21,397 nt of DNA from a virus, in IMG/VR virus record IMGVR_UViG_3300035698_021598, positions 1 to 21,397 of that record, one strand, 5' to 3'. Below the pieces are notes generated by a model that was not told the origin of the DNA, did not search any database, and saw nothing but the letters and a program-made list of their open reading frames with translations. Both the position numbers and the translations under genes were made by a program. Positions 303 through 10,764 of this stretch are shown here, one piece after another. Numbering within the stretch: position 1 is the first letter of the stretch; each line of letters starts with the position of its first letter.

Positions 303-1187
303 TCAAGAAATTCTTTTAAGGAACTCATCTCGTGTTGCTGCATCCTCTCTAAAGGCACCTAATAAAGATGTGGTAGTAAATACTGAATTTTGACTCCTAA
401 CACCTCTCATAAGCATACAAAGGTGCTGTGCTTCAACTACTACACCCACTCCTTCTGGATATAAATCTTCCATTAATTGAGAAGAAATTTGAGAAGTAAG
501 ACGCTCTTGAATCTGTAATCTACGACTAAATACTTCTACTAATCTAACAAGTTTTGATGTACCTACAATACTACCTTTTCTGGGTATATATCCAATATGA
601 ACTTTGCCAAAGAAAGGTAACATATGATGCTCACACATTGAATAAAAATTAATGTCTTTTAATATAATCATTTGATCAGCATTTGGCTCTGTAAAGGTAG
701 TTAATTTTACTTCTTCCTCATAACCTCTATATAACTCATTCCATGACTTTAAAACACGTTTAGGCGTATCAACAAGTCCTTCTCTGGATGGATCTTCACC
801 TATATACTCCAGTTGTCGCACGATTAAATCTTCGGCATCTTTCTGTTCATCTTCCCAAGGAAATACCAACCACGTTCCCGGCTCATCTTTCGCATCATAC
901 AAAGATATAAATTCCGCATTAGGATTTAGTGCCATGTATTTATCCCGAGTACGCCCTGAGGCAACAATATCATCAAGAATAATATCAACACATTCTTGAT
1001 GATCATAACAGCGTATAATAGATCTATTCAAATAAGAAGCAAATCCAAGTAATATCATTCCATTTTTAGGAATACCATACACATTTTTATTATTCATTTG
1101 ATCTAAATAAGGAGAAATTTTCTGTCTAATCTCTTCCCAACTTACTTTACGTTTATTAGTTTTTGCAACTGCAGGCTTAGTCTCCAT
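303..1187 (-). CDS. folE: Phosphoribosyltransferase-like domain fused to GTP cyclohydrolase I (FolE)
   Basis: 294 aa. Residues about 117-294 form a full GTP cyclohydrolase I, which converts GTP to dihydroneopterin triphosphate, the first step of 7-deazaguanine synthesis. The zinc and active-site signature CEHHMLPFFG (C185, H187/H188) and the second cysteine in QHLCMLMRGVR (C257) are present. Residues about 36-112 look like a type I phosphoribosyltransferase: GIPKNG at 39-43, the PRPP-binding DIILDDIVASGRT at 68-80, and a closing FPWE. Ordinary FolE is about 180-220 aa, so the front domain is a real addition. The domain order suggests salvage of a purine base to a nucleotide that feeds GTP to FolE; that is inference. 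The start follows GGAGG with 7-bp spacing. The gene is last in the operon and overlaps the 3' end of queE by 46 nt. Confidence 0.93.
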   Translation of the reverse strand: METKPAVAKTNKRKVSWEEIRQKISPYLDQMNNKNVYGIPKNGMILLGFASYLNRSIIRCYDHQECVDIILDDIVASGRTRDKYMALNPNAEFISLYDAKDEPGTWLVFPWEDEQKDAEDLIVRQLEYIGEDPSREGLVDTPKRVLKSWNELYRGYEEEVKLTTFTEPNADQMIILKDINFYSMCEHHMLPFFGKVHIGYIPRKGSIVGTSKLVRLVEVFSRRLQIQERLTSQISSQLMEDLYPEGVGVVVEAQHLCMLMRGVRSQNSVFTTTSLLGAFREDAATRDEFLKRIS

Positions 1188-1738
1188 CTTGGATCCTCCA
1201 TAATGATATTAGTTAATTGTTTCATTGTATGATTAAATGGGGTAGTTATACCACTCACATAACCCCACTCTGGTTGAAGAAAATAATAATGAAAATCAGA
1301 ATCAAAATATTTTTCTAATTCTTCAGCGGTTTGTCCATTCCATATTACTTTGAGTTCATGACCAGATGTTAAAATCCAATTTTTTTTCGGTGAAACAGTT
1401 ACCCAAGAAAGATGTTTTTTTATTTCTTTAGATAAAGGAATAGTTCCATTTGTTTCAATATGTATATGATAACGTTCTAAAATAAGATAATGAAGTAAGT
1501 TTAAATCAATATGTAGTGCTGGTTCACCTCCGGTTAAACAAATATGTTTTATACTACTTCCCCTAATTCGATCAATTAACCCCTCCGCTGTCAATTCTAA
1601 ATTAACTTTATCATGATTAGTATCACACCACTGACATTTTAAATTACATCCAGAGAACCGGATAAATATCATAGCAGTTCCAGCCCACAATCCTTCTCCT
1701 TGTACACTCTGGAATATTTCATTAATTTTATAGTTCAT
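1142..1738 (-). CDS. queE: 7-carboxy-7-deazaguanine synthase QueE (radical SAM)
   Basis: 198 aa from the ATG at 1738; GTG 1750 and TTG 1747 lie too close to the AAAGGAAG ribosome site. QueE is a radical SAM enzyme that contracts the ring of CPH4 to give 7-carboxy-7-deazaguanine. The sequence shows the early FQSVQGEG motif, the cluster-binding CNLKCQWC (CX3CX2C, C31/C35/C38) and the glycine-rich TGGEP (69-73) that contacts SAM. The C-terminal LSLQLQK is a conserved QueE feature. The 5' end overlaps queD and the 3' end runs 46 nt into folE, so translation is probably coupled. Length fits the compact QueE type. I see no missing key residue. Confidence 0.95.
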   Translation of the reverse strand: MNYKINEIFQSVQGEGLWAGTAMIFIRFSGCNLKCQWCDTNHDKVNLELTAEGLIDRIRGSSIKHICLTGGEPALHIDLNLLHYLILERYHIHIETNGTIPLSKEIKKHLSWVTVSPKKNWILTSGHELKVIWNGQTAEELEKYFDSDFHYYFLQPEWGYVSGITTPFNHTMKQLTNIIMEDPRWRLSLQLQKLINVK

Positions 1739-2075
1739 AAATTGCAACACTTCCTTTCGTTTCTTCTACAGCAACTCGGTAACATACAGCATGTAATGAC
1801 TCAATAGCAACATTTACTTCTTCATGTATTAATCTGGCAAAATGCTCTGCAGTTGGCTGTCCCATATAGTCATTCAAATTCTGATGATCAAATTTCATAA
1901 CTGCTTTTTTAAGCAAAGCAAAATCCATGACCATACCTTCAGAATTTAATTTTTCAGCATGTAAATAAACAGTCACATAATAATTATGACCATGCATATT
2001 TTCACAAGGAGAATCATATGGTAATACCAAATAATGACTCGCTGAAATTTGAACAGTTTTCCTAAGTTTGTACAT
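1728..2075 (-). CDS. queD: 6-carboxytetrahydropterin synthase QueD
   Basis: 115 aa. QueD converts dihydroneopterin triphosphate, the FolE product, to 6-carboxy-tetrahydropterin. The zinc histidines appear as SASH (H14) and HGH (H28, H30), the catalytic cysteine is C24 in CENMHGH, and DHQNLNDY (63-70), PTAEHFA and the C-terminal VEET glutamates match the family. I chose the ATG at 2075 because GGAG lies upstream and the protein then begins at the usual place; an upstream ATG at 2132 would add 19 basic residues but has only a weak ribosome site. It sits between queF and queE with a 168-bp gap upstream, the largest in this operon, so some independent expression is possible. Confidence 0.95.
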   Translation of the reverse strand: MYKLRKTVQISASHYLVLPYDSPCENMHGHNYYVTVYLHAEKLNSEGMVMDFALLKKAVMKFDHQNLNDYMGQPTAEHFARLIHEEVNVAIESLHAVCYRVAVEETKGSVAIYEL

Positions 2076-2170
2076 TATTTTAAATCTCCTTTCAAATTGC
2101 CTTAAAGCACGTTTAAACAGTATCTGCTGCATTTTACTTTACTTAAGGTATGTTTATATGCCTCACTCCC

Positions 2171-2243: not shown

Positions 2244-2705
2244 TCAATCTCCTATTAAAACTTCATGTTTTTTTACTGGAAATTCATCAATAATTTCAAA
2301 ACCACCTTTAACTAATCTGGTACTAATTCCACCCCTCACAGCCACATTAATTTCAACACGAAGTTTTAGCGGTTTGACAGCCCTGAAGAAATCATCATAG
2401 ATTTTATTAATCAAATGTTCGTGCAAGATTGGCAAGTCACGGTACTCAATAAAATACAATCTAAGACTCTTCAATTCTGGTATGTACTTATTAGGCGTCC
2501 AGATAATTTTTAATTCATAATTATCCGGTAAACCAGTCATTGGACAAACACCTTCAAGTTCATTATAATTATATGTGACTTCTGTATTACTATCCTTTAA
2601 AAAATCAAGTGCAGTAATGGCACGAAGCGATGTATTTAAAATTTCTTCTTGCATTTTTCTAACATCTTCAACAGACATGTCTTCAATGTGTTTCCACTTT
2701 TCCAT
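2244..2705 (-). CDS. queF: NADPH-dependent 7-cyano-7-deazaguanine reductase QueF
   Basis: 153 aa, the size of unimodular QueF. The enzyme reduces the nitrile of preQ0 to the aminomethyl of preQ1 using NADPH. Visible hallmarks are the nucleophilic cysteine in EGVCPMTGLPD (C54, with D61 seven residues later), the diagnostic QueF NADPH motif ELKSLRLYF (77-85), and the HE pair at 95-96. Presence of the NADPH motif argues against the archaeal QueF-like amidinotransferase, which lacks it. The start at 2705 has AAGGAGG 8 bp upstream. Lying between queC and queD in a dpdA operon, it implies that the DNA mark is preQ1 or a derivative rather than preQ0. QueF could alternatively serve tRNA queuosine, but the context favours DNA. 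Confidence 0.94.
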   Translation of the reverse strand: MEKWKHIEDMSVEDVRKMQEEILNTSLRAITALDFLKDSNTEVTYNYNELEGVCPMTGLPDNYELKIIWTPNKYIPELKSLRLYFIEYRDLPILHEHLINKIYDDFFRAVKPLKLRVEINVAVRGGISTRLVKGGFEIIDEFPVKKHEVLIGD

Positions 2706-2748: not shown

Positions 2749-3414
2749 TTATTCTATATAATCTGTATGATCATGTACACCTGCTTTTTTAAATGCGCTA
2801 CGTCGTTCTCTACACGTTCCGCAAACCCCACAATGTTTTTCACCACCTTTATAACAACTATATGTAAGATGTAATGGAACTTTCATTATAAATCCTTCAT
2901 TTACAATTTCTGCTTTATTCATATGAAGAAATGGTGATTCTAAAGATACTTTTCTATTTGTACCAATATTTATAGCATTAAACATATTAGATATAAAAGT
3001 AGGTGTGCAGTCTGGATATAGAGTATGATCACCAGCATGATTGGCAATAGCAATATGGTAGCAATTTATACTCTCGGCATAACCAGCAGCGATGGACAGC
3101 ATTATCCCATTACGAAAAGGAACTACTGTACTGCCCATATTGTCTCTATCATATGAACCATCTGGAATATCATCTCCACCTTCTAATAAAGCTGATTTAA
3201 AAAGTTGCCCAATAAAAGGTAACTCAATTGAAATTAAATTTTCATTCTTTAACTTATAATGTTTGAATATTCTTCTTACAGCAAGATATTCCCTGAAATG
3301 ATGTTTCTGCCCATAATTAAAATGAAGTGCAGTAACATCATAATCTAAATCTAAATAATGAGTAAGCAAAACTGTACTATCTAAACCGCCTGAATAAATC
3401 AACACCGTCTTCAT
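2749..3414 (-). CDS. queC: 7-cyano-7-deazaguanine synthase QueC
   Basis: 221 aa. QueC is an ATP-dependent ligase that turns 7-carboxy-7-deazaguanine and ammonia into preQ0. The PP-loop SGGLDST is at 8-14, and the C-terminal zinc cysteines are C187, C195, C198 and C201 in the CYKGGEKHCGVCGTC region. The family's RNG(I/M) active-site segment is visible as PFRNGIML. The ATG at 3414 has GGGAG 6 bp upstream; an upstream ATG at 3444 lies within dpdA and has no better site. The 5' 38 nt overlap the 3' end of dpdA. Nothing is missing. Confidence 0.96.
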   Translation of the reverse strand: MKTVLIYSGGLDSTVLLTHYLDLDYDVTALHFNYGQKHHFREYLAVRRIFKHYKLKNENLISIELPFIGQLFKSALLEGGDDIPDGSYDRDNMGSTVVPFRNGIMLSIAAGYAESINCYHIAIANHAGDHTLYPDCTPTFISNMFNAINIGTNRKVSLESPFLHMNKAEIVNEGFIMKVPLHLTYSCYKGGEKHCGVCGTCRERRSAFKKAGVHDHTDYIE

Positions 3415-4303
3415 GAATAACTCCCTTCTCCATCCAGTGATCATAAATGTTTAGAACCCTTTGAGCAACCTGTATCCCAACGGCTAAGTGAAATTTAATT
3501 TTATGATGCAGATAAATATCAATAGCATACAGTATCCATGCCTTCATGGTTATCTGACCCATGAATGATTCTAAACCATCCCTTCCCCACCAATTCTCAT
3601 CCTTCAAGATTTCACGATAATCAATTCCATATACTTGAAGAGTTTTTTGTATCTTTTTACTCGGAACTCCCATGGAAGGAACGTCCCGCCGTTTCAATAC
3701 CCACCATTGAGCACCGCCTAAATATACTTCTAATGAGCCCCATTGTGCTCCTCTCATGAAATTAGTATTATCCACACTATATGGTTTATAATAATACATC
3801 AATGGTTTGTTCACATAACCGAGCCAGTGTACTTTTCGTTTGCCAATCTCCCGCATCACTCGTTTAATATATCCCATTTCAATTTTAGCAAAACCACCTT
3901 CAAGAGCACCTATTGCAACTAAAGGATTTAAGTCATACAATCCATCTATTTCCTTTATTTTTTCTCCTTTCGTAAAAATAGGAATTGGATGTAATCCAGC
4001 ATCATACATAATATTAAGATTCTTTTTTGTAATAACTGGATTACCAAGAACATCCAATTGAAAATATCCATCAACTGGGAAAGGGATTCTTTTTATGTAT
4101 GAAATATAATCTTGTAATCCAGTTTCTAAATTTCCACTCTGGACTGAAAATGCACCACAGTCAATTATCAGACTAATATCTTTTGCTCGATCCTGAAAGA
4201 GTTTAATGCACGTTTCAAGCTTCCCGGATGATCTTTTATTTTTGCTTTTCAGATGCTGATAACTCATGAGCAAATTCAATTTCATTTTAGGAGACTTTGA
4301 CAT
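3377..4303 (-). CDS. dpdA: DpdA-like DNA 7-deazaguanine transglycosylase
   Basis: 308 aa. DpdA proteins are tRNA-guanine transglycosylase relatives that exchange guanine in DNA for a 7-deazaguanine base. The TIM-barrel TGT-like strands are visible: IIDCGAFS (46-53), GYFQLDVLGNP (79-89, with the aspartate expected in substrate binding or catalysis), HPIPIF, VAIGALEGG and VHWLGYVN. I recognise the overall pattern of phage DpdA; the precise subfamily cannot be fixed by eye. The ATG at 4303 is preceded by GGGGGA with 8-bp spacing. Its 5' end overlaps the ParB-like gene by 17 nt and its 3' end overlaps queC. Being in one operon with all preQ0/preQ1 genes makes a DNA role far more likely than tRNA modification. 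Confidence 0.87.
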   Translation of the reverse strand: MSKSPKMKLNLLMSYQHLKSKNKRSSGKLETCIKLFQDRAKDISLIIDCGAFSVQSGNLETGLQDYISYIKRIPFPVDGYFQLDVLGNPVITKKNLNIMYDAGLHPIPIFTKGEKIKEIDGLYDLNPLVAIGALEGGFAKIEMGYIKRVMREIGKRKVHWLGYVNKPLMYYYKPYSVDNTNFMRGAQWGSLEVYLGGAQWWVLKRRDVPSMGVPSKKIQKTLQVYGIDYREILKDENWWGRDGLESFMGQITMKAWILYAIDIYLHHKIKFHLAVGIQVAQRVLNIYDHWMEKGVIHEDGVDLFRRFR

Positions 4304-4913
4304 CTTTATATTCCCCCAATACTCCATTGAGTTTTTCAACAATCTCGTCTTTAAGCAGGAATGGACATCTTATCTTTATAAAACAAGTAAGACCATCTTC
4401 ATTCTCCTTCAAATCTTCAATTGTTTTAAAATCAGAATCCCATAACAATTGAGCTTCTTTAAATTCCTTTTCTGTATATCCGGTATTCTCAGCAGTTAAA
4501 TCAAGATCCTCATTCTGCATGAGCATGCTCAAAACATCAGCATCCCATTCAGCAAATTCACTGGCTTTATTATCTGATAAGGCATAAGCAGTTGCTGCTG
4601 ATTTCGATTTGAATTTATGGAACACCACAGGAACCTTAGCATATCCCAGATACTTCAATGCTTTTAATGTCAAGTTACCTTTATAAATACACATGTTATC
4701 TTCCCAGGCAATTAACGGTGAGGGAATACCGTGCATCTTTATAAGTTGTGCTAATTTCTCAACCATTGAAGTAGTATGCACTCGTGGATTACCTTCCCAG
4801 TTATGCACATCACCTATTGGTACATTTAAGATCACTGGAAGAGTGGTATCAATCTTTTTCGTTTTTTTGCTGATCATCCGTGTTTTAATTTTCTTTATCT
4901 TCATTATATACAT
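4287..4913 (-). CDS. ParB/Srx-fold protein upstream of dpdA
   Basis: 208 aa. The N-terminal 20 residues are very basic. Residues about 27-125 form a ParB/Sulfiredoxin-type domain: NVPIGDVHNWEGNPRVH (ParB box I-like, NPR at 42-44), IYKGNLTLKALKYLG in the box II position, and SDNKASEFAEWD, a signature common in phage ParB-like proteins next to DNA-modification genes. These are not partition ParBs; some are nucleases or CTP-dependent DNA clamps, and here a role in guiding or licensing DNA modification is only inferred. The ATG at 4913 directly follows the upstream stop; the in-frame ATG at 4904 is an alternative start. The 3' end overlaps dpdA by 17 nt. Confidence 0.8.
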   Translation of the reverse strand: MYIMKIKKIKTRMISKKTKKIDTTLPVILNVPIGDVHNWEGNPRVHTTSMVEKLAQLIKMHGIPSPLIAWEDNMCIYKGNLTLKALKYLGYAKVPVVFHKFKSKSAATAYALSDNKASEFAEWDADVLSMLMQNEDLDLTAENTGYTEKEFKEAQLLWDSDFKTIEDLKENEDGLTCFIKIRCPFLLKDEIVEKLNGVLGEYKDVKVS

Positions 4914-5414: not shown

Positions 5415-5906
5415 TCACTTAAAAGGATTTTTGAACATCTTTCTTAATTGAGTAGCTTGTGCAGACCGAGCAGACCAAGCAGCAGACTCAGCAGCAGACC
5501 GAGCAGCAGACCAAGCAGCAGACTCAGCGGCAAACTCAGCAGCAGACCGAGCAGCAGACCGAGCAGCAGACCAAGCAGCAGACCAAGCAGCAGACCGAGC
5601 AGCAGACCCGGCAGCAGACAACTCTTCTCTTGTGGCTTGACCATTAGCAAATTTTTCCGCTACATCACAAGCCTCAATGCTTCGCTTGTCCGTATCTTTG
5701 GTAAAGGTTTGTCTTGCGTCCCACACCGCAAATAATCTTAACTGCTTATCTGTTCCATAATCAAGTTCATCCATAACCCAGAGCATCCAGTCTGAGCGTT
5801 CACATTTTTCCCATGCTTCGTGCATAGTTTGAATATTGTTTTCTTTAATCCATTCTATCGCTTCACTACAAGCCTTATGTTTTTTGCACCATGTTATAGC
5901 TTTCAT
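5415..5906 (-). CDS. Imm5-like protein with Ala/Ser-rich repeat domain
   Basis: 163 aa. The first 70 residues (MKAITWCKKHKACSEAIEW, then AWEKCERSDWMLWVMDELDYG) resemble the start of the putative immunity protein family Imm5, often seen in phages. Residues about 97-150 are a low-complexity array of SAAWSAARSAAE-type repeats encoded by 12-nt DNA repeats, followed by a short basic tail. The array should form one long amphipathic helix. Such repeats vary in number between related phages; repeat expansion by slippage is likely. AGGGG lies at a good distance from the ATG. Function is unknown; immunity-protein homology does not show that it protects from a toxin here. Confidence 0.8.
   Translation of the reverse strand: MKAITWCKKHKACSEAIEWIKENNIQTMHEAWEKCERSDWMLWVMDELDYGTDKQLRLFAVWDARQTFTKDTDKRSIEACDVAEKFANGQATREELSAAGSAARSAAWSAAWSAARSAARSAAEFAAESAAWSAARSAAESAAWSARSAQATQLRKMFKNPFK
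5461..5620. repeat. 12-nt tandem repeat array inside the Ala-rich gene
   Basis: About thirteen degenerate copies of a 12-nt unit of the form AGCAGACCRAGC, in frame with the minus-strand gene (Ser-Ala-Ala-Arg/Trp/Glu). The purine/CAG-rich sequence gives long open frames in several other frames; these are artefacts of the repeat. Confidence 0.9.
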
Positions 5907-7860: not shown

Positions 7861-9848
7861 CATTTCTTATACACCTCCGCAATTTCAGTTATATGAATAA
7901 TGCCATCAGTTAAACTCCATTTTGTTTTAATACTGCTTAATTGTTGTTTCTTTAAAACTTGTAACATATATAAATTTTCAATTAATCTTTTTGTAGTGCT
8001 GGAAGGTAATTCAATCATATTGGCAATTTCTGCATCTGAATAACTCGCTGTGATACTTTGGTTATATATACCGCTTATAATGCGCTCAGTACGTGTAGGA
8101 ACGGTGTTTAATGCTATTCCTTTAACAATATTATATTCTGCATCACCCACTTTTTTAAGTCGTCTGAATAAGGATATACCAAAAATCAATTTTTTAAACT
8201 GTTTTGCTAATCGAGTTCCTAATTCATCTGATGGATAATGAAGTACTTCTTTAGTATATTTATCCCGAGTAACAGATGATCTTAGAAGTGAAGTCCACAT
8301 TGCCAGACCATTTATTTTTCTTTCAATCTCTGGCGATATTTCAGGTAGTTCACCAAAATCATAATTAAGAATTTTAAGGACTAAATCAGACAATTCTTTT
8401 CTCATTGTATCTTCGCTTGCCACATTGCTCATTGCTTTGAAAATTATTTCCATACGGTCATCCAAATCTCTTGATATTGGTATTTTATATCTGATAAACC
8501 TTTCTCCTAATGCTACATGTTCTTCCGTAAACTCATCTATCTTTGGAGTAACTCCTGCAAGTATACCAAACTTACTTTTATACACTCTAAATATTCCATT
8601 ACCAAATTGCTTCTCAGAATGTCCATCGTAACAATCCCTTAAAATTCCAAATATTTCTTCCCGATCATTTGAGTTCATACTTAAGATTACCGTAAAATCT
8701 TTAACTACAAATACCTTTTTGTTTAATTTAGGCACTAAACTCGGATCTCCTCCTGTACCAAAATTAGCCCCACTTATTAAAGCATGAGGTGATATAGAAG
8801 ATGCTGAAAAAATTTCTTTAGCTTCAATTAATGTCATTAGTAATTCCGATTTCATACCGCCAGAGGGAGCAACAATAAACATCCAGAGCGGTTCACCTGG
8901 AAAACGATTTGCTATGATCACACCAAACAATACATCAAGAACCGTAGTATCATCTTTAGGAAATTTTAGCCATTTTTTATATGTTTTATAAACTGCCTCA
9001 GGGCGTACTCCCTTACCTTTATATTCTAATTTTTCCACTTCTGGTACTTCGGCACCATCTGGATACATTTCCATTATTGATGTAAGGCTCTTAATCAATT
9101 TATCTTTCTTCAGATGATAATAGTCTCTAATGTCAAAACCAACTCCATATTTAGCAGGCCAATTTATAAATTTTAAACTATCCGCTACAGCATTTAACAT
9201 GTTATAAACTTTGATGGCTCCCTCACGACCGGCTTCATCATTATCATATAATACATGTACTGCCTTGCCTCTAAATATATTTACCCATTCACCTTTAAAA
9301 GTGTTAGCTCCAGGCACTGCTAATACCGTTTGTTTTATTCCAACTTTTTCAAGCACTTCTCTCATTGCTATTGCATCCCATTCACCTTCACATAACCAAA
9401 TAGTATCACTGTTTATATTATCCCATCCAAATAATCCTACTTTACAGTCTTTAGTTGAGATAACATTTTTACCTAATTTACATAAACGTACATCTTGAAT
9501 TTCTTTTTCATCTGGAGATTTTATAGGGATTATATATGTATCAGTATTTGAATTATATCCGAGTCCAGCTTTCCTCAAAGTATTAATTTTTAATCCTCGT
9601 TCTCTACTAAGAGCAATAGCCGGTTTTTGTTTAAAATATTGCTGACAATGATTAACTATTTCTTGCAAGAAAATTTGAAATCCACCTGCTTTTCCACACG
9701 ATTTACAATCCCATTGTTTCGTTTCTATATTAATATAAAAATGACTCGTTCTCAGGCAGAAAGGGCATTGTCCAAATATTTGGTTTTCCACTTCTCCTGC
9801 TTGTACAAATCCATGTTGTTCAAACATGCTGAGAGATTTCTTTTTCAT
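7860..9848 (-). CDS. Phage primase-helicase with zinc finger and Toprim domain
   Basis: 662 aa. An N-terminal zinc ribbon (C28, C31, C48, C51) is followed by a Toprim catalytic core with the acidic glutamate in WLCEGEWDAIAM (E155) and the DXD in YDNDEAGREG (202-204). A P-loop ATPase domain follows, with Walker A-like APSGGMKSE (327-335), and the C-terminus is predicted to be winged-helix-like (SDAEIANMIELPSSTTKRLI). This is the layout of proteins that make primers and unwind DNA at phage forks. The exact helicase superfamily is not clear by eye, since the Walker A is unusual. AAAGG lies 6 bp before the ATG. Confidence 0.87.
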   Translation of the reverse strand: MKKKSLSMFEQHGFVQAGEVENQIFGQCPFCLRTSHFYINIETKQWDCKSCGKAGGFQIFLQEIVNHCQQYFKQKPAIALSRERGLKINTLRKAGLGYNSNTDTYIIPIKSPDEKEIQDVRLCKLGKNVISTKDCKVGLFGWDNINSDTIWLCEGEWDAIAMREVLEKVGIKQTVLAVPGANTFKGEWVNIFRGKAVHVLYDNDEAGREGAIKVYNMLNAVADSLKFINWPAKYGVGFDIRDYYHLKKDKLIKSLTSIMEMYPDGAEVPEVEKLEYKGKGVRPEAVYKTYKKWLKFPKDDTTVLDVLFGVIIANRFPGEPLWMFIVAPSGGMKSELLMTLIEAKEIFSASSISPHALISGANFGTGGDPSLVPKLNKKVFVVKDFTVILSMNSNDREEIFGILRDCYDGHSEKQFGNGIFRVYKSKFGILAGVTPKIDEFTEEHVALGERFIRYKIPISRDLDDRMEIIFKAMSNVASEDTMRKELSDLVLKILNYDFGELPEISPEIERKINGLAMWTSLLRSSVTRDKYTKEVLHYPSDELGTRLAKQFKKLIFGISLFRRLKKVGDAEYNIVKGIALNTVPTRTERIISGIYNQSITASYSDAEIANMIELPSSTTKRLIENLYMLQVLKKQQLSSIKTKWSLTDGIIHITEIAEVYKK

Positions 9849-9857
9849 ATTATACCT

Positions 9858-10472
9858 TTATTTATAATCTACATTTATAAGTTCTAAAATTTTATTCAAA
9901 CCTAATGTAAAAATACAATATTTATATAACTGTGGATGTGTTTGCTTCATCAATTGAAAACGATTTGGATATTTATCAAAATGTACCCCAAACATACAAA
10001 ATATACAACCTGTATTTTTATATCCCATATTATAAATCTTTGAATAAGGTACATTAAATTGTTTTATATAATCCCATATATCCTTTTCTGTCCAAAATGC
10101 TAAAGGATTTGAGCGAGGATGCTCACTTATAAAATTATTACAACCACCTCTTTTATAAGCAAAAGCTCGGGATGAAGAATCAATTGCTTTCAATCCAATA
10201 AATGGTTTCTTCCTACTTCTTTTTTCATACTCACGTGCCGGGTTTATTTTGAGTATATTGCAACATTTTTTAGAAAATTTAAAATCTGCATCAATTAAAT
10301 ATCTCCATTTCTGTGCTAATTTAACATCTTCCCATTTAGCAAAAGTACCATCTCTTTTTTCACCTGTTAGAATATATCTCCGTATATTAACATTTTTATC
10401 AGAAGGATTCTGTAAATATTCCAATTGCTGACAGATTTTTTTTTGATAATATAGGATAACCATAAGTTTCAA
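9858..10472 (-). CDS. PAPS reductase-like protein, C-terminal part after a frameshift
   Basis: Carries the C-terminal two-thirds of a phosphoadenosine-phosphosulfate-reductase-like protein: the KKCCNILKINPAREYEK segment, IGLKAIDSSSR and GCIFCMFG with paired cysteines. It overlaps the N-terminal part by 74 nt in another frame. Continuity of the family pattern places the junction at nine adenines (minus strand of 10436-10444). One base fewer there, or a +1 slip, would fuse the two parts into about 300 aa. An ATG at 10472 exists but has no convincing ribosome site and would leave an enzyme without its PP-loop. Confidence 0.72.
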   Translation of the reverse strand: MKLMVILYYQKKICQQLEYLQNPSDKNVNIRRYILTGEKRDGTFAKWEDVKLAQKWRYLIDADFKFSKKCCNILKINPAREYEKRSRKKPFIGLKAIDSSSRAFAYKRGGCNNFISEHPRSNPLAFWTEKDIWDYIKQFNVPYSKIYNMGYKNTGCIFCMFGVHFDKYPNRFQLMKQTHPQLYKYCIFTLGLNKILELINVDYK

Positions 10473-10764
10473 GTACCTTTTTAAAAGTCATTTTTGGTTT
10501 TAACCAACGTACATTTTTTATAGTTTTTACAAATTCTCTTATCTCCGGGAATTCTAATCCTGTATCATTAAATACACCCCAAACTCGTGGATATAATTTA
10601 CGTACAAGATGCAATAATACAGTACTATCTTTTCCACCAGAAAATGCTACATAAATTAAACCATCCCAGTGATCATACCACTCTCTAATACGTTTTTCAC
10701 TCATTAATATTTTAATATCTAATGGTAATGATTGTCTTTGTTTTAATTGCCAATTTTCTAACAT
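10399..10764 (-). CDS. PAPS reductase-like protein, N-terminal part with PP-loop
   Basis: 121 aa as read. VAFSGGKDSTVLLHLV is a textbook PP-loop of the PAPS reductase/ATP sulfurylase family, and NDTGLEFPEI is the second conserved block. After YGYPILSKK the frame runs into unrelated residues and stops at 10399, while the expected continuation is in the overlapping frame. Phages often carry these proteins near replication or modification genes; substrates are mostly unknown. The ATG at 10764 overlaps the polymerase stop by 7 nt. The break at an A9 run may be an assembly or sequencing indel, a real mutation or programmed slippage. Confidence 0.75.
   Translation of the reverse strand: MLENWQLKQRQSLPLDIKILMSEKRIREWYDHWDGLIYVAFSGGKDSTVLLHLVRKLYPRVWGVFNDTGLEFPEIREFVKTIKNVRWLKPKMTFKKVLETYGYPILSKKNLSAIGIFTESF

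Follow-up and report, generated by a model that had tools for sequence, protein, structure and literature searches.

A phosphoribosyltransferase domain ahead of GTP cyclohydrolase I in phage 7-deazaguanine DNA modification clusters

The described phage pathway of 7-deazaguanine DNA modification comprises FolE, QueD, QueE, QueC and DpdA, together with tailoring enzymes; DpdA exchanges guanine in DNA for preQ0 or a derivative, and one guanine is released per base exchanged. FolE of phages 9g, Dp-1 and CAjan, the same enzyme at the same pathway position as the one considered here, has been described without a phosphoribosyltransferase (PRTase) domain, and no PRTase domain on FolE is mentioned in the 2019 account of phage 7-deazaguanine pathways by Hutinet (PMC6884629). 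The architecture reported below is nevertheless present in Nipunavirus and related phages (PaMx25, NP1, MMDA13 gp31 and VpKK5), where the protein is annotated as GTP cyclohydrolase only. In tubercidin biosynthesis, the CDG-specific PRTase TubE and its homologue ToyH are encoded alongside homologues of GTP cyclohydrolase I, QueD and QueE, as in the phage clusters, but TubE, which we compared by description only, is a separate 194-aa protein acting on CDG (PMC6112128).

With regard to the domain itself, the Gpt enzymes of E. coli and Yersinia (1a95, 5xtk) and the P. horikoshii protein 1vdm share with the phage domain the fold, the TW/SW start at the N-terminus, the PPi loop, the PRPP motif DDxxDSGxT, in most copies the purine Lys, and the W...PW end, but the phage domain has no flexible loop II, a shorter hood, a length of ~105 residues and the fusion to FolE. 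The copy in the window (the whole stretch analysed here, a 21.4-kb virus record of 33.8% GC) further differs from Gpt in having Ala for the general-base Asp. Stand-alone phage PRTases of the family phrog_8995 ('phosphoribosyl transferase') are the same short PRTase and also occur in 7-deazaguanine clusters, but they are separate genes with a longer hood and the usual motif DDIADTGKT; all the separate phage PRTases that we scanned match this family, the best at 1.8e-14. The literature searched, which covered few subscription papers, yielded no description of a PRTase-FolE fusion, the MMDA13 paper included, and no paper with both DpdA and a phosphoribosyltransferase. In the annotation and literature covered, the PRTase is thus unconnected so far with phage 7-deazaguanine DNA modification.

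The fusion gene and its neighbourhood

The minus-strand genes of the cluster are tightly packed in the order dpdA-queC-queF-queD-queE, with the fusion ORF last:

303..1187 (-), PRTase-FolE fusion gene, 294 aa (ORF list; full-length relatives in phages)
306..839 (-), GTP cyclohydrolase I (FolE) domain, aa 117-294 (Pfam 4.1e-69)
849..1160 (-), N-terminal XGPRT-like phosphoribosyltransferase domain, aa 10-113 (profile against PDB, AlphaFold2, Foldseek)
852..872 (-), purine-pocket end WLVFPWE, aa 106-112 (conservation in 84 fused domains)
948..986 (-), PRPP-binding motif DIILDDIVASGRT, aa 68-80 (D72 and D73 invariant; Ala76 at the general-base Asp position)
1059..1076 (-), PPi loop GIPKNG, aa 38-43; family consensus G(V/I)PRGG (alignment of fused domains)
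1142..1750 (-), QueE, radical SAM, 7-carboxy-7-deazaguanine synthase (phrog_2076 8.5e-33)
1728..2132 (-), QueD, 6-carboxytetrahydropterin synthase (PF01242 4.8e-28)
2244..2705 (-), QueF or QueF-like protein, 153 aa (PF14489 1.3e-17)
2749..3444 (-), QueC, preQ0 synthase (PF06508 1.8e-58)
3377..4342 (-), DpdA-type DNA-guanine transglycosylase (phrog_887 1.3e-19)

The adjoining que and dpdA genes bear out the DNA-modification context proposed in a first-pass annotation of the sequence. The fusion ORF starts with an ATG at 1187, preceded by GGAGG 7 nt upstream (1195-1199), and its 5' part overlaps the 3' end of queE by ~46 nt. Since the last Met residues before the FolE border are Met44 and Met84 and the border itself has no nearby Met, the two domains are most likely produced as a single polypeptide. 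The FolE domain matches PF01227 (GTP_cyclohydroI) at 4.1e-69 over aa 122-293, and its zinc and catalytic residues C185, H187, H188, H255 and C257, invariant in 24 fused homologues, are all present, so that FolE is, judged from these residues, intact, as first annotated.

The N-terminal domain alone had no match in a Pfam search and a weak match to phrog_8995 (1.6e-4) among the PHROG families. A profile of 30 relatives of the domain, by comparison, matched the purine PRTase 1vdm of P. horikoshii in the PDB at 8e-16 and the Yersinia and E. coli XGPRTs at 8e-14 to 2e-12. AlphaFold2 modelled the domain with a pLDDT of 94.3, and the whole fusion chain with a pLDDT of 90 and a pTM of 0.64, leaving the packing of the domains uncertain. 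Foldseek searches with the domain model returned 45 matches at E<=0.001, all of them PRTases and nearly all of the XGPRT/1vdm type, headed by 1vdm and XGPRTs with probability 1.00 and a TM (query) of ~0.6-0.7; the domain had to be searched alone, as the whole chain gave FolE structures only. Profile, model and structural matches rule out a chance resemblance and confirm, at the level of sequence and prediction, a type I phosphoribosyltransferase alpha/beta fold of XGPRT-like character. The first-pass annotation had proposed this fold for residues 36-112 on the strength of three motifs, DIILDDIVASGRT (68-80), GIPKNG (38-43, within YGIPKNG at 37-43) and FPWE (109-112). All three are present and lie inside that segment, but the domain is larger, spanning aa ~10-113 and including a predicted strand (11-14) and helix (17-31).

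Elsewhere in the window, a 17-bp inverted repeat, noted by eye, lies 3' of folE at the contig end (1-17, ATAAAAACGCAATATTG; ~107-123, CAATATTGCGTTTTTAT). A PAPS-reductase-like gene at 9858-10764 is spread over two overlapping frames (N-terminal half 10399-10764, C-terminal half 9858-10472), for which a frameshift, an assembly error or programmed frameshifting are candidate causes. An ORF at 5415-5906 carries a long Ala/Ser/Trp repeat (SAAWSAARSAA...), and other frames are open there too.

Spread of the domain and its association with the pathway

The first-pass annotation knew of no described PRTase-FolE fusion; the literature searched agrees, but the arrangement is widespread in phage records. 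A PRTase domain precedes FolE in 33 GenBank phage records, comprising 31 found by tblastn (35 less four Flavobacterium records with a separate PRTase gene) and two MMDA13 records added on motifs plain in the alignment, as well as in ~100 IMG/VR loci. The GenBank phages, among them PaMx25, NP1, MMDA13 and VpKK5, infect Pseudomonas, Vibrio, Stenotrophomonas, Xanthomonas, Variovorax and Sphingomonas, and their fused proteins are annotated, where at all, as GTP cyclohydrolase (FolE) only. In PaMx25 (JQ067084.3; L083:7902-8792), the annotated folE begins at a start inside the fusion, whose reading frame is already open at 7902, and a hypothetical ORF has been called in another frame across the PRTase domain. 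Within a set of 167 loci, made up of IMG/VR loci, the window and seven stretches from GenBank phages and including some duplicates, 109, counting the window, have both domains in one frame, and 49 have FolE without a PRTase in the sequence stretch examined. Other fused copies are 17-39% identical to that of the window.

Two Enterococcus phage records with at least 80% cover were dropped as fusions; the judgement was made on one of the two, OR846612 (L086), in which the frame upstream of FolE is no PRTase and resembles an HPPK-like gene of folate synthesis. With FolE beside such a frame, OR846612.1 may contain host sequence that entered the phage assembly. Three further loci have unusual architectures. 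At L148:9845-11647, the FolE part of a PRTase-FolE is split by an intein that carries an HNH domain (PF14890 3.7e-15); the insertion adjoins the Cys that serves as zinc ligand in the ..HxCM..RG motif. At L006:7341-8843, a HAD/LNS2-like domain (PF24694 5e-5, under its cut-off) lies in frame upstream of PRTase-FolE and may either belong to a true three-domain protein or sit in a stretch that is simply open ahead of the actual start codon. At L120:9887-13652, a FolE with an N-terminal HNH domain (PF01844 3.9e-8) is flanked by two different PRTases.

In a tree of FolE domains (118 rows; bootstrap not fully settled), 22 changes between fused and unfused states are required, of which 7 or more fall on supported branches. 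A single origin of the fusion was rejected on this count, and the tree indicates repeated gains of the fusion, repeated losses, or both. The window groups with a fused locus (L089) and with L004, in which a separate PRTase gene lies immediately upstream of folE.

In a set of 35 distinct fused loci flanked on either side by 6 kb or more of sequence, QueD and DpdA were each found in 34, QueE in 32 and QueC in 26. The search seeds were taken from que/dpdA clusters, which biases these percentages; more weight attaches to the fact that the association recurs in different arrangements. Those large fused contigs that were run against phrog_887 also contain DpdA. The Pfam TGT family (PF01702) was abandoned as a DpdA detector, and its negatives discarded, because it missed contigs in which phrog_887 matches DpdA.

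Separate PRTase genes recur in the same clusters, between queC and dpdA in L040 and L056 and beside folE or queE in further loci. Flavobacterium phage immuto has the order QueD-QueE-PRTase-FolE-DpdA-QueF, Synechococcus phage BUCT-ZZ01 the order QueE-XGPRT-QueD-FolE with a loop spacing of 46, and two Brevundimonas phages, whose genomes also encode QueC and QueD, have FolE next to a full-loop XPRT (spacing 56). No que gene was seen in the stretch examined at six separate-PRTase loci; however, two of these (L173, L182) have the same PRTase as the que-bearing loci L169-L172 and L183, QueC is present elsewhere on the contigs of L200 (the contig of L141), L181 and L196, and QueD on that of L189. The L141 contig carries the PRTase with QueD, QueC and DpdA and has FolE2 (PF02649 1.4e-73) in place of FolE; since this phage keeps the PRTase, the domain need not be physically joined to FolE. 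As a control, the same profile was used to retrieve 53 cellular loci, of which 50 have an XGPRT and no pathway genes within up to 8 kb on each side. Most matches of a profile search of genome contigs were ordinary alphaproteobacterial XGPRTs; fused matches were limited to L201 and L202, both with a complete que-dpdA cluster.

Taken from gene content, the PRTase, fused or separate, looks like an unrecognised component of phage 7-deazaguanine DNA modification. It is dispensable for the pathway, being missing from many phages that have both FolE and DpdA. That it follows the pathway through phages unrelated to one another, in three or more gene arrangements, points towards a step still to be assigned: what becomes of the ejected guanine, and how the cell pays one GTP per modified base. 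Culturable carriers are available among Nipunavirus, Vibrio, Stenotrophomonas and Flavobacterium phages.

Searches with phrog_887 and phrog_7068 gave no clear DpdA in several separate-PRTase contigs. Three ORFs near separate PRTase genes in such contigs were considered as divergent DpdA- or TGT-like candidates: L175 8366-9574 has a weak match to PF01702 (0.0027), L004 13499-14722 matches none of the profiles tried, and L192 10158-10949 has its best match in phrog_19058 (unknown function) and a weak one in phrog_20335, with no other. The immuto gene at the corresponding place is annotated as DpdA.

Conserved and missing parts of the active site

Across 84 distinct fused PRTase domains, the PRPP aspartates D72 and D73, together with G78, T80 and E112, are present in 100%, so the aspartates central to the first proposal have not been lost in homologues. 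S77 (96%), the PPi-loop residues G42/G43 (94/98%), W106 (98%), P110 (96%) and W111 (92%) are nearly as constant; D76, at the position of Gpt D92, is found in 83 of the 84 (98%), and a Lys at the position of Gpt K115 in 72 (86%). We take D76 to be the N7 general base, the Lys to be the O6 contact and the Trp to line the purine pocket, roles known from E. coli XGPRT and transferred by alignment. The invariance of D72, D73, G78 and T80 and the retention of W106, P110, W111 and E112 in 84 divergent copies argue for purifying selection on the fused PRTase.

The window copy departs from the family at three conserved places, N42, A76 and A99/K100. Its PPi loop reads KNG rather than RGG, its PRPP motif reads DDIVASGRT, making it the sole exception at D76, and in Ala99-Lys100 the purine-O6 Lys is shifted by one relative to the Gpt K115 position. 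The missing general-base Asp and the shifted Lys suggest that this copy is possibly impaired, its catalysis weak or lost, with perhaps a binding role left.

The family as a whole is also reduced. The spacing from the PPi loop (GG) to the PRPP motif (DD) has a median of 23 (range 20-48) in fused domains, compared with 52 in 51 cellular XGPRTs, and the hood is shorter by ~11 residues (26 versus 37 in cellular XGPRTs). Nearly all fused and most separate phage PRTases lack flexible loop II, which in HPRT shields the active site while catalysis proceeds (PMC6783271); since the separate forms mostly lack it too, its loss is not simply due to the fusion. Ligand binding by the fused family is likely on these alignments, and catalysis uncertain, with the window protein the weaker candidate. 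The conserved Asp expected to face N7 would fit a true purine better than a 7-deazapurine. As a natural PRTase that lacks loop II, the domain would also lend itself well to studies of PRTase mechanism.

Candidate roles of the domain

We lean, tentatively and short of calling it probable, towards the family PRTase converting DpdA-ejected guanine and PRPP to GMP. FolE would spend one GTP for each guanine that DpdA releases; the domain, which in the family at large would bind PRPP and a purine, would turn the ejected guanine into GMP, and host kinases would bring GMP to GTP, the substrate of FolE. Removal of guanine would also take away a product competing in the exchange reaction, as freed guanine can by general TGT chemistry. 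A more specific proposal is possible and somewhat more doubtful: the minimal PRTase without loop II, whether fused or encoded separately, would be a component of DpdA base exchange dedicated to recycling guanine (or to removing the product), closing a guanine-GMP-GTP-preQ0-DNA cycle in the infected cell. Salvage fits because the purine-site residues are conserved, because the association follows the pathway and not one FolE type, and because other phages place longer-loop XGPRTs there. The salvage role offered by the first-pass annotation accordingly gains weight from the separate PRTase genes in que clusters, the longer-loop XGPRTs beside FolE or QueE in three isolates and the conserved guanine contacts. 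It is weakened by the absence of loop II and of part of the hood, by Ala76, the KNG loop and the displaced Lys of the window copy, by the 49 FolE loci without a PRTase domain and by the fact that most hosts own a guanine PRTase. The annotation's interpretation as a whole is partly supported: fold, fusion, FolE and pathway context hold, and catalysis, guanine as the substrate and any channelling are conjectural.

Ranked second, and on balance unlikely, is a regulatory ligand-binding module for PRPP, GMP/GTP or (p)ppGpp tuning flux through FolE, or an oligomerisation scaffold, in which efficient catalysis was lost with loop II. The near-general absence of that loop speaks for such a role, as does the window copy, which retains the PRPP aspartates and not the general base; in addition, the HPRT loop-III motif EDIIDSGLT, which binds PRPP and (p)ppGpp (PMC6783271), nearly equals the DDIIDSGxT of the phage family. 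Yet the general-base Asp in 83 of 84 domains suits base chemistry more than sensing, and the purine Lys is kept in 72. Regulation of FolE cannot explain the whole role of a PRTase that is also encoded away from FolE and in a FolE2 phage, and longer-loop XGPRTs fill the same niche in three phages. Third in the ranking, and improbable, is a TubE-like 7-deazaguanine phosphoribosyltransferase, which would join PRPP to CDG or preQ0 to give a 7-deazaguanine nucleotide. Such an activity would be in keeping with the cluster partners of TubE and ToyH (PMC6112128) and with the PRTase gene adjoining queE in some phages (immuto, BUCT-ZZ01). However, the transglycosylases in 34 of 35 fused loci are of the DpdA type, which uses free bases, no genes for nucleotide-level insertion were seen with the PRTase, and the Asp expected to face N7 is kept, although 7-deazaguanines have carbon there.

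A decayed or accidental fusion, leaving a functionless relic, is the least probable explanation and a very improbable one. The window copy, with no general base and a KNG loop, and the identity of only 17-39% between other copies and the window are what a relic would lead one to expect, but residues conserved or invariant over 84 very divergent copies indicate purifying selection, and the PRTase recurs as a separate gene. A second context for the short PRTase is possible: in the large phage contigs of L189 and L196, it lies near ORFs that, by eye, resemble nicotinate PRTase and NAD synthetase.
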